Shown here in pieces: positions 13,474-37,030 of a stretch of DNA of 37,030 bases (within the stretch, counting starts at the first letter, position 1; each line of letters opens with the position of its first letter). Made by a program: the position numbers and the translations under genes. Under the pieces are notes generated by a model, which was given only the letters and a program-made list of their open reading frames with translations, did no database searches and was not told the DNA's origin. Origin of the DNA: Rheinheimera sp. (GTDB lineage Bacteria; Pseudomonadota; Gammaproteobacteria; Enterobacterales; Alteromonadaceae); the NCBI RefSeq assembly GCF_030824435.1, contig NZ_JAVBXS010000087.1, positions 1 to 37,030 on the forward strand, written 5' to 3'.

Positions 13474-13503
13474 TTGACGAAACATAAGCTTCTGCGGTTT
13501 GAT
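13474..13503 (+). promoter_or_regulatory. Candidate trp operon promoter
   Basis: TTGACG (13474-13479), an 18-nt spacer and TTTGAT (13498-13503) lie 31 nt before the first leader peptide. This would give a leader transcript of about 140 nt to the first attenuator terminator, the usual size. I found no palindromic TrpR-type operator (paired CTAG half-sites) around it. Confidence 0.45.
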
Positions 13504-13533: not shown

Positions 13534-13581
13534 ATGATGTTACAAACAACCTTAACCAACTGGTGGTGGCATACTCCTTAA
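13534..13581 (+). CDS. trpL: trp operon leader peptide 1 (TrpL)
   Basis: A 15-residue ORF, MMLQTTLTNWWWHTP, with three consecutive Trp codons (13561-13569). AGGGTG (13520-13525) lies 8 nt before the first ATG; the second ATG (13537) could also serve. Ribosome stalling at the WWW block when charged tRNA-Trp is scarce would mask the segment just upstream and switch the RNA to the antiterminator. Placement between the divergent rnm gene and trpE, directly before a strong terminator, fits the trp leader peptide of other gammaproteobacteria. Confidence 0.93.
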   Translation: MMLQTTLTNWWWHTP

Positions 13582-13653
13582 CGGGCGTGTGTTGGTGTTG
13601 TTTACCCTGAATAAACCCCAAGAGCCCGTTTTCACGAAACGGGCTTTTTTTTT
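13544..13653 (+). promoter_or_regulatory. trp attenuator 1 (pause hairpin, antiterminator, terminator)
   Basis: Three competing pairings can be read directly. (1) Pause hairpin: AAACAAC (13544-13550) with GTTGTTT (13597-13603) plus ACCAAC (13555-13560) with GTTGGT (13591-13596), 13 pairs with a 4-nt bulge, holding 13561-13590 in the loop. (2) Antiterminator: AACGGGC (13580-13586) with GCCCGTT (13624-13630). (3) Terminator: AGCCCGTTT (13623-13631) with AAACGGGCT (13637-13645). AACGGGC occurs in both the antiterminator and terminator arms, which is the expected switch design. The leader peptide covers the 5' arm of (1) and its stop codon abuts the antiterminator arm. Confidence 0.92.
13623..13653 (+). 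terminator. Attenuator 1 terminator
   Basis: A 9-bp stem AGCCCGTTT/AAACGGGCT with loop TCACG is followed by nine T (13645-13653), a strong intrinsic terminator. It lies about 190 nt before trpE, inside the operon leader. Confidence 0.93.
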
Positions 13654-13693
13654 GATGTTAAAACGATAAACGAAACAAATTAGGATTAAAAAC

Positions 13694-13777
13694 ATGAGCT
13701 TAGTAGCGTTAATTTCCTGGCGATGGTGGCAGTTTTCTGTCGGGGGCACAGGCCCTGCTTTGGACTATTGTAACTAA
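13694..13777 (+). CDS. Candidate second Trp-rich leader peptide
   Basis: A 27-codon ORF lies between the attenuator 1 terminator and trpE. It starts MSLVALISW and has a WRWW cluster at residues 9-12 (TGG at 13718, 13724 and 13727), ending at TAA 13775-13777. AGGA (13682-13685) stands 8 nt before the ATG, a better site than that of leader peptide 1. Three Trp codons in four positions, in the leader of an operon whose enzymes almost lack Trp, argue for a second stalling peptide. It is followed within 6 nt by a strong hairpin and then a terminator-like hairpin. It could instead be a chance ORF, so this is a candidate. Confidence 0.65.
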   Translation: MSLVALISWRWWQFSVGGTGPALDYCN

Positions 13778-13782
13778 CAGCT

Positions 13783-13832
13783 GCTGATCTTCGCGGCACA
13801 AACCGCAGATCAGCCCCGCCAAGGCGGGTTTT
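13783..13832 (+). promoter_or_regulatory. Candidate attenuator 2 (hairpin plus terminator-like hairpin)
   Basis: GCTGATCT (13783-13790) pairs with AGATCAGC (13807-13814), extended by GCGG (13793-13796) with CCGC (13803-13806): 12 pairs, a 2-nt bulge and a 6-nt loop. Directly after it, CCCGC (13815-13819) pairs with GCGGG (13824-13828) around CAAG, followed by TTTT (13829-13832). GGGGC (13743-13747), inside the second leader ORF just after its Trp codons, can pair with GCCCC (13813-13817), which would break the terminator stem. The T-run is short, so termination strength is uncertain. The trpE ribosome binding site (AAGGAA) follows at 13835. Confidence 0.55.
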
Positions 13833-13846
13833 GTAAGGAAAGACCA

Positions 13847-15436
13847 ATGATTTTCAGCCATATCACCCAACAAGCTGGCCAGGTAGCCAGCATCAGTCAG
13901 ACAGTGCCTTATCAGGCCGATCCGCTGGCTTGTTACCAGCATTTAGCAGGGCAAAGCCGATATTCGTTGCTGCTTGAATCTGCCGAAATTGACAGCAAAG
14001 ACAATCTCAAAAGCCTGATGTTACTGGATGCCGCACTGCGCATTGAATGCAACGGCGGGCAAGTGACAGTTGAGGCCATTACCAACAACGGCAAACTGCT
14101 GCTGCCTTTTTTACACGACAAGTTACAAGGCAAAGCCAGCCTGCGCCTGGCAGATGATGCTTCTGTGTTGATTTGCCAGTTTACCCGCCCCGATCCTTTG
14201 CTGGATGAAGACAGCAAACTGATTGCCGCCAACCCTTTTGATGTTTTGCGCGTATTGCAGCATGAACTTTTTAGCCATAGCAATGAGCCTTTTGCCATCT
14301 TTTTAGGCGGTGTCATTGGTTATGACATGGTGGCCACAGTAGAGCAGCTGCCCGAAGTGCCAACAGGCGCTAACCGCTGCCCGGATTATTTATTTTATGT
14401 GGCTGAAACCTTGTTGGTGCTGGACCATCAGGCGCAACAAAGCCGCTTAATTGGCAATATTTTTTGTGGCGAAAGTGCCATGGCCAATTGTTTTGTGGTG
14501 GGCAACCGACTGGAGCAACTGAGTCAGATGCTGCAAGATCAGGCAACAGCATCCGCACAGCAGGCGGGCGCGCAGCAGGTTGCCGCGGTGCAGGTTGATA
14601 TCGATGATGCCGCTTTTATTGCTCAGGTAGAAAACCTGAAAGAAAACATCGTTGCAGGAGATGTGTTTCAGGTGGTGCCAAGCCGCTGTTTTAGCTTGCC
14701 TTGTGCCAATCCGCTTGCCGCTTATGCCAAACTCAAACAACAAAACCCCAGCCCTTATATGTTTTTCCTGCGTGACAGCACATTCGAGCTGTTTGGCGCA
14801 TCGCCTGAGTCGGCGCTGAAATTTGATGCCAAAAGCCGTCAGGTGGAAATTTACCCTATCGCCGGTACCAGACGCCGTGGTTTTAAAGCCCTGGGCCAGA
14901 TTGACCGCGATTTAGACAGCCGTATTGAGCTGGAGCTCAGACAAGATGACAAAGAAAAAGCCGAACATTTAATGCTGGTGGATTTAGCCCGTAACGACGT
15001 GGCCCGTATCAGCGTACCCGGCAGTCGTTATGTCAAAGAGCTGCTTAAAGTGGACCGTTATTCTTATGTGATGCATCTGGTATCCAGAGTGGTAGGCACA
15101 CTAAAACCTCAGCTGGATGCACTGCACGCGTATCAGGCCTGTATGAATATGGGCACTTTGGTTGGCGCGCCCAAGGTAAGAGCGGCCGAGCTGATTCGCC
15201 AGGTGGAAAGTAAACGCCGCGGCAGTTATGGTGGTGCTGTCGGTTATTTATCCGGTAACGGTGATTTTGACAGTTGTATTGTTATTCGCAGTGCTTATGT
15301 CGAAGCTGGCACCGCCTATATTCAGGCCGGCGCCGGTGTGGTGTATGACTCCATCGCCAAAGCAGAAGCCGACGAAACCCGCAGTAAAGCCCAGGCAGTA
15401 GTGACAGCTATTCTGGCCGCCGGAGGTGCACAATGA
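13847..15436 (+). CDS. trpE: Anthranilate synthase component I TrpE
   Basis: Converts chorismate to anthranilate using ammonia from TrpG, the first committed step of Trp synthesis. It is 529 aa, the normal length. The N-terminal LLLESAEI (LLES about residues 42-45) is the conserved Trp feedback-binding element. The catalytic domain shows PSRCF, FGASPESALKF, PIAGTRRRG, DLARNDV, GTLVGAPKVRAAELI and RRGSYGGAVGYL. AAGGAA precedes the ATG. It contains no Trp residue. TrpG overlaps its stop by 4 nt, implying coupled 1:1 synthesis. Confidence 0.97.
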   Translation: MIFSHITQQAGQVASISQTVPYQADPLACYQHLAGQSRYSLLLESAEIDSKDNLKSLMLLDAALRIECNGGQVTVEAITNNGKLLLPFLHDKLQGKASLRLADDASVLICQFTRPDPLLDEDSKLIAANPFDVLRVLQHELFSHSNEPFAIFLGGVIGYDMVATVEQLPEVPTGANRCPDYLFYVAETLLVLDHQAQQSRLIGNIFCGESAMANCFVVGNRLEQLSQMLQDQATASAQQAGAQQVAAVQVDIDDAAFIAQVENLKENIVAGDVFQVVPSRCFSLPCANPLAAYAKLKQQNPSPYMFFLRDSTFELFGASPESALKFDAKSRQVEIYPIAGTRRRGFKALGQIDRDLDSRIELELRQDDKEKAEHLMLVDLARNDVARISVPGSRYVKELLKVDRYSYVMHLVSRVVGTLKPQLDALHAYQACMNMGTLVGAPKVRAAELIRQVESKRRGSYGGAVGYLSGNGDFDSCIVIRSAYVEAGTAYIQAGAGVVYDSIAKAEADETRSKAQAVVTAILAAGGAQ

Positions 15437-36962: not shown

Positions 36963-37030
36963 TCCTCAGTAGCTCAGCCGGTTAGAGCGGCGGACTGTTA
37001 ATCCGTAGGTCGTTGGTTCGAGTCCAACCT
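36963..37030 (+). tRNA. tRNA-Asn (GTT), 3' end beyond the window
   Basis: Begins TCCTCAGTAGCTCAG. The anticodon arm GGACT-GTT-AATCC puts anticodon GTT at 36997-36999, and the T arm GGTTCGAGTC is present. The sequence stops before the closing acceptor strand, about 8-10 nt short of the end. The body closely matches enterobacterial tRNA-Asn. Confidence 0.96.

Follow-up and report, generated by a model that had tools for sequence, protein, structure and literature searches.

Attenuation of the trp operon is a textbook single switch. The stretch of Rheinheimera sp. DNA analysed here (37,030 nucleotides, hereafter the window, whose end truncates a tRNA gene at 36963-37030) raises the question of what the second of two Trp-codon leader ORFs does when both stand in series before trpE. 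An original prediction had proposed tandem attenuation at this locus. Its letters and coordinates for the two ORFs were confirmed, and 22 of 22 genus genomes have both. All features of the trp locus described here lie on the + strand. ORF1 (13534..13581, leader peptide MMLQTTLTNWWWHTP) is found genus-wide at the same position with WWWHTP, and its Trp codons, TGGTGGTGG at 13561-13569, encode WWW. ORF2 with its own AGGA site spans 13682..13777 (AGGA at 13682-13685, 8 nt ahead of the ATG). Its coding part, 13694-13777, specifies the peptide MSLVALISWRWWQFSVGGTGPALDYCN, with a WRWW cluster written TGG CGA TGG TGG at 13718-13729 (Trp codons at 13718-13720 and 13724-13729, CGA at 13721-13723). ORF2 is thus present as predicted, and it is kept in relatives. 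The trpE gene, encoding anthranilate synthase component I, follows at 13847..15436 and matches TrpE loci throughout; its Shine-Dalgarno (SD) sequence, AGGAAA, was read from the sequence at 13836..13841.

A likely trp promoter, TTGACG and TTTGAT separated by 18 nt, was located by eye at 13474..13503; a consensus scan missed it because its -10 rule leaves out TTTGAT. Across six groups of tandem leaders, TTGAC lies at most 120 nt ahead of ORF1 in 114 of 116 cases and in the ORF1-ORF2 interval in 3 of 116. This placement argues that ORF1 and ORF2 most likely share one transcript.

We analysed 273 trpE upstream regions drawn from samples of the family, the order and three more families, which came to 235 once identical ones were merged. 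Sixty of the regions were fetched from a search of 395 family genomes, 5 of 162 loci were dropped because a TrpE match was lacking, family f148 contributed loci from 30 of the 48 genomes with a match, and a class-wide TrpE search, with 2 matches outside the window's own genome, was left out. At least one Trp ORF was found in 211 of the distinct regions and none in 24. At least two, and hence tandem leaders, were found in 118 of the 235 distinct trpE upstream regions in the order. A TrpE tree built from 69 selected rows splits the genus into two clades, for which we use the working labels RheinA (the sister clade, 12 members, support 100/100) and RheinB (the clade of the window, 10 members, 100/98). 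The tandem leaders are distributed over RheinA (12), RheinB (10), Pseudoalteromonas (44, together with one Algicola), f134 (21), f135 (4), f148 (24) and others (2). The Pseudoalteromonas group was bounded by locus number and includes the Algicola leader (L071). Tandem leaders are undercounted in it, as inspection by eye shows another TGGTGGTGG leader, rejected by the filter, in each of L094, L158 and L166; L075 has WGW in its leader. In f134, trpE was found in 24 of 24 genomes, with WRW in 21, a degenerate WR in L259 and L260 and neither in L255.

Relatives that keep the first attenuator and lack a second ORF had been named in the original prediction as evidence against it. Such leaders are common in other genera (one Trp ORF in 93 of the 235 regions) and were found in 0 of 22 members of the genus. 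Rows with a single Trp leader include Alteromonas, Bowmanella, Alishewanella, Arsukibacterium and R. pacifica. Single-leader rows require 5 changes on the TrpE tree, so that an ancestral tandem arrangement with losses and several independent gains are both possible. One further leader stands apart: L199 (genome G022) has a leader ORF, SWFIWWLQPLYAG, at about -102 to -39 of trpE, with no first Trp leader detected, and the ending of its peptide is also found in the second ORF of the tandem leader L208.

Unit 1, the WWW unit, is a classical transcription attenuator, as the original prediction had held. It comprises a short ORF with a run of Trp codons, whose start site scores weak, followed by attenuator 1 at 13582..13653, which was recognized by terminator scan, Rfam match and folding. 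It consists of region 2 (CGGGC, 13582-13586), region 3 (GCCCG, 13624-13628) and an intrinsic terminator at 13620-13648 with its T-run. The Rfam Trp_leader model RF00513 matched unit 1 at 30.7 bits (E 2.2e-4), below the gathering score of 41. In silico, region 3 was held upstream with a probability of 1.00 with the ribosome on the Trp codons versus 0.16 with the ribosome at the stop codon. Here and for unit 2 of the relatives with a terminator, region 3 was modelled on RNA as it is before the second arm of the terminator exists; equilibrium folding of whole terminators left stalled and unstalled states indistinguishable, with a terminator probability near 1 in all. With terminators defined by a stem of at least 5, a loop of at most 18 and at least 6 U of 8, one was found for unit 1 in all 45 Pseudoalteromonas-group leaders, 10 of 12 of RheinA, 21 of 21 of f134, 4 of 4 of f135 and 24 of 24 of f148. 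For RheinB the count is 7 of 10, rising to 10 of 10 at a threshold of 5 U.

ORF2 is also real, judged by its conservation. The core LISWRWWQFS is present in 10 of 10 RheinB leaders; 6 of its 10 codon columns vary and every change is synonymous, while the leader around the core has diverged. When the region after ORF1 of the window's clade was dinucleotide-shuffled, 5 of 400 sequences had a second Trp-cluster ORF (0 to 1.5% of shuffled regions, depending on the group), and the unshuffled regions, read on the opposite strand, gave one in 0 of 10. One reading of these leaders is that unit 2 of RheinB is a decaying relic without function: its terminator has been lost and its hairpins vary between subclades. 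However, retention of the Trp codons in 10 of 10 members and the purely synonymous change of the core within a diverged leader make decay highly improbable.

In 57 of 59 WRW ORFs from four groups, the Arg flanked by Trp is encoded by CGA, a triplet that accounts for 1-9% of the Arg codons in trpE of those groups. The ORF2 peptide or codon string might therefore matter in itself, either because WRW with a rare CGA forms a special stall or because the peptide acts in trans, as has been described for trp leader peptides in Sinorhizobium (PMC7298713). The retention of GGCGATGG in L270 and L272, where the first Trp has gone, points the same way. However, the 57 cases are not 57 independent events because the rows share ancestry, two RheinB members have CGC in place of CGA, and the mechanism is only hypothetical; we regard this reading as very improbable.

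Tandem transcription attenuation as such, the core of the original prediction, does exist, in RheinA and Pseudoalteromonas, by both the terminator rule and folding. An intrinsic terminator follows ORF2 in 45 of 45 leaders of Pseudoalteromonas and the one Algicola and in 11 of 12 of RheinA; restricting loops to at most 10 nt recovered just 14 of the 45, whereas the rule above, with its longer loops, recovers all 45. With a ribosome on the ORF2 Trp codons, region 3 of unit 2 is held upstream at a median of 0.83 in the Pseudoalteromonas group and 1.00 in RheinA, versus 0.00 and 0.35, respectively, with the ribosome at the stop codon. The Trp-minus-stop difference exceeds 0.3 in every one of the 45 leaders of the former and in 10 of 11 of the latter. 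RF00513 scored 24.9 and 33.7 bits on the two units of R. faecalis (L053) and 30.8 and 20.8 bits on those of P. haloplanktis (L062), all below the cut-off, and 0 of 8 tandem loci reached the gathering score. Thus, the unit-2 terminators and the modelled switching between Trp and stop states make tandem attenuation in these relatives well supported.

By the same rule, an intrinsic terminator in unit 2 was found in 0 of 10 RheinB leaders, 0 of 21 in f134, 0 of 4 in f135 and 0 of 24 in f148; shuffled nulls for unit 2 gave 0.00-0.01. The prediction of a second transcription attenuator is thus not supported for the window itself, as RheinB lacks a U-rich terminator at this position. The terminator-like hairpin that had been described after ORF2 exists, as a small GC hairpin (CCCGCCAAGGCGGG, 13815-13828) followed by TTTT at 13829-13832, but the run has just four U and then a G. 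In a scan that returned 4 terminator-like sites in 641 bases, with 0.9 expected from shuffles, it was among the weaker two + strand sites. The element at 13815..13832 is a probable remnant of a unit-2 terminator. A 12-bp hairpin in the ORF2-trpE interval was found where predicted, at 13783..13814; it appears in the folds of L002 and L003 and not in those of L004-L006.

Might unit 2 still be a second, weak transcription attenuator, with the hairpin at 13815-13828 and UUUU terminating partly and stalling at Trp codons relieving termination? The full attenuator at the same place in the sister clade and in all Pseudoalteromonas and Algicola leaders argues for this, as does the remnant itself, whose GC stem of 5 bp and run of 5 U of 8 are retained in 3 of 10 RheinB leaders, namely the window and the two relatives nearest to it (L001-L003). 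However, these three fail the 6-of-8 U rule along with the other RheinB members. The proposed antiterminator, GGGGC:GCCCC, has complementary letters but a pairing probability of 0.00 in all four modelled states (free, ribosome at the first Trp codon, at the last Trp codon and at the stop codon), because GGGGC pairs locally with a GCCC about 5 nt further on (hairpin at 13743..13755 within ORF2; probability 0.74-0.97 across the four states), and it was dropped as a candidate. Similar GGGC..GCCC pairing appears in the folds of RheinB. Folding of the window's unit 2 also gave no Trp-versus-stop switch: region 3 was held upstream at 0.79 in the stop state versus 0.52-0.61 in the Trp states, a modelled behaviour that is the opposite of a working switch. 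The RF00513 search of the window's leader matched unit 1 alone. Finally, L033, L005 and L034 have no room for a unit-2 terminator, because their ORF2 stop lies 15 nt ahead of trpE. A weak second transcription attenuator in the window is therefore unlikely.

Folding instead points to the trpE SD sequence. In the predicted minimum-energy fold of the window, and in its best duplex, UUUCCU at 13713..13718, an anti-SD sequence that ends in the first ORF2 Trp codon, pairs with AGGAAA at 13836-13841. The trpE SD pairs with the first-Trp-codon segment in 10 of 10 RheinB folds read by eye, and in f134 in some folds, not every one. In both groups the best leader:SD duplex is at most 8 nt from the first Trp codon, and its mean energy is -7.9 kcal/mol in RheinB and -7.4 kcal/mol in f134, versus -4.9 to -5.2 kcal/mol in RheinA, Pseudoalteromonas, f148 and single leaders. 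When a ribosome is modelled on the ORF2 Trp codons, the probability that the window's SD is unpaired rises from 0.30 in the free RNA to 0.59-0.61. With the ribosome on the first Trp codon, the corresponding changes are 0.18 to 0.56 in RheinB, with a gain above 0.3 in 6 of 10 leaders, and 0.13 to 0.66 in f134, with such a gain in 14 of 21; elsewhere it is seen in 0 of 12 (RheinA), 2 of 45 (Pseudoalteromonas), 0 of 4 (f135) and 0 of 24 (f148).

Shuffling the 24 nt ahead of the Trp codons raised the mean unpaired probability of the SD from 0.17 to 0.44 in RheinB and from 0.20 to 0.52 in f134, and left it unchanged in the other four groups (RheinA, Pseudoalteromonas, f135 and f148). At the 0.05 level the effect held in 5 of 10 RheinB and 16 of 21 f134 leaders, compared with 1 of 12 in RheinA, 0 of 20 in Pseudoalteromonas (20 of the 45 leaders of that group were taken), 0 of 4 in f135 and 2 of 24 in f148. 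Taken singly, the window scored 0.13, L006 0.62 and L008 0.70; in L006 TCG replaces TCC, which breaks the main anti-SD helix. The effect also depends on how much of trpE is folded. Sequestration of the window's SD was seen when the fold took in no more than 30 nt of trpE and was weak with 60 nt, at which the unpaired probability went from 0.51 to 0.61 in the window and from 0.41 to 0.50 in RheinB, with a gain above 0.2 in 1 of 10; in f134 the gain persisted in 17 of 21. A window-ranking test gave a median of 0.097 in RheinB, with 2 of 10 under 0.05, and its control, f134 ORF1, was also low (0.083, 6 of 21), about like ORF2.

Comparison of the aligned second units, which the original prediction had called for, bore out the Trp codons, kept in 10 of 10 RheinB leaders, but not covariation of the stems: RNAalifold yielded almost no consensus structure, as the spacing is not constant from leader to leader. 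Swapping SD sequences between leaders within RheinB cost nothing (305 of 2,000 permutations were as low), and within f134 33 of 2,000 were as low; with one leader per subclade the counts were 839 for RheinB and 203 for f134. Swaps across RheinB and f134 together gave 0 of 2,000, or 14 of 2,000 with representatives. Covariation thus appears only across the two groups combined; inside RheinB it is absent, and in f134 it is modest. Taken with the folding, modelled support for SD masking is good in f134 and moderate in the clade of the window, where it fades with 60 nt of trpE. We give a probability of about 0.5 to the reading that unit 2 of the window acts as a translational attenuator of trpE.

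The position of the ORF2 stop bears on this reading and on another, in which ORF2 acts by coupling or reinitiation, ribosomes that finish ORF2 restarting at trpE and the Trp codons setting their flow. In L033, L005 and L034 the 15-nt distance would suit coupling, and a terminating ribosome there would cover the SD, which counts against translational attenuation by SD masking; reinitiation at gene-proximal leader peptides has also been proposed (PMC4833913). However, the distance from the ORF2 stop to trpE is 69 nt in the window and ranges over 37-69 nt in the remaining members examined, and stalling would reduce reinitiation (PMC4833913), the wrong sign for a biosynthetic operon. Coupling through ORF2 is accordingly a quite improbable account.

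In f135 and f148, unit 2 shows neither a terminator nor SD masking. Eighteen f148 leaders with a measured site (L189, L197, L198, L264-L268, L274, L275, L277, L279, L280, L282, L283, L285, L286 and L288) have a third small ORF just upstream of trpE whose stop overlaps the trpE start (ATGA), for example MNIGNTHHTQGNAL, an overlap that looks like translational coupling. We considered this third ORF as the target of unit 2 and rejected it, as the effect was inconsistent: the median unpaired probability of its SD was 0.56 free versus 0.44 stalled in 18 of the 24 leaders, 5 of the 24 having no such ORF and 1 no recognized site. In five other f148 leaders (L210, L212, L276, L278 and L281), ORF2 begins FWRWQ..., occupies about -150 to -17 of trpE, encodes 44-45 aa with the conserved tail VTDDDIA.QVI.QIPDD.H and ends 17-19 nt ahead of trpE.

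Under the translational reading of the window's unit 2, one signal seems to check the trp operon at two points, a single leader RNA molecule sensing charged tRNA-Trp twice. The first step would be classical and has strong comparative support: when Trp is low, a ribosome would stall at WWW in ORF1, region 2 would pair with region 3 and transcription would pass the terminator near 13650. In the read-through RNA, the UUUCCU that overlaps the first ORF2 Trp codon would then pair with the trpE SD and hold translation of trpE low, and a ribosome stalled on WRWW would cover UUUCCU and leave the SD free. The window's unit 2 was probably remodelled from a transcription attenuator, because the sister clade has a full attenuator at the same place and the window keeps apparent remnants of one.

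Two such checks may substitute for the TrpR repressor. No TrpR gene was found in the window's own genome, and none of 98 family genomes had a match to the TrpR family PF01371 above its cut-off; 3 weak matches lay below it, and the E. coli control was positive. Among 16 further genomes it was over the cut-off in 3, all single-leader, and in none of the 8 of them that belong to f134, f135 and f148; across both searches, 0 of 15 tandem-leader genomes had a match over the cut-off. Absence of TrpR is no predictor of tandem leaders, because many single-leader genomes lack TrpR too.

Our search of the open-access literature turned up no description of paired Trp leaders ahead of trpE; a survey of proteobacterial attenuators, reportedly by Vitreschak and colleagues, lies outside its scope. 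RF00513 resembles unit 1, and both units of the sister clade and Pseudoalteromonas, in having a Trp-codon ORF, an antiterminator and a terminator. However, it is known as a single unit, whereas here two stand in series and the RheinB unit 2 lacks the U-rich terminator. In erm-type translational attenuation, a ribosome stalled on a leader ORF exposes a hidden SD sequence. The mechanism proposed for the window would share this SD-freeing principle, but the erm signal is an antibiotic and not amino-acid supply.

Other systems recall parts of the arrangement. The mgtCBR leader of Salmonella likewise has two leader ORFs and tandem attenuators in one leader, but its units respond to ATP and to proline, whereas both units of the window carry Trp codons (PMC3641672). 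That paper presents mgtCBR as a singular case of tandem attenuators for different signals, and in it Lee and Groisman describe biosynthetic genes as normally under one attenuator answering one signal. The mefA/msrD leaders (PMC10314930, which also names ermC) have two leader peptides for the same inducer in one operon; unlike in the window, each precedes its own gene, the signal is a macrolide and both act on transcription. In the LEU element of actinobacterial leuA (PMC1262725), the regulatory codons of a leader ORF are predicted to pair with the SD of the gene, as in the window, but that element concerns leucine in Actinobacteria, involves a pseudoknot and stands alone, whereas the window's sits behind a transcription attenuator; the authors leave its mechanism open. 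Further accounts describe a tandem terminator for rimP (PMC2965389), enter Shewanella trpE as RF00513 in a table (PMC2659441) and model the sensitivity of attenuation (PMC1183508).

On a wider scale, and at somewhat less than even odds, much of the order, in lineages in which TrpR was not detected, may place two Trp sensors in series ahead of trpE in one leader RNA, with a proximal WRW/WWW sensor that is either transcriptional, as in Pseudoalteromonas and the R. faecalis type, or translational through SD masking, as in the clade of the window and the distant family f134, the output having changed inside one genus. In lineages in which no TrpR turned up, sensing one signal twice in a row could make control stronger, or effective over a wider range, in the absence of a repressor protein. 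If this is true, the sister clades of Rheinheimera, one with the transcriptional and the other with the presumed translational form, would make the evolutionary change between them testable.
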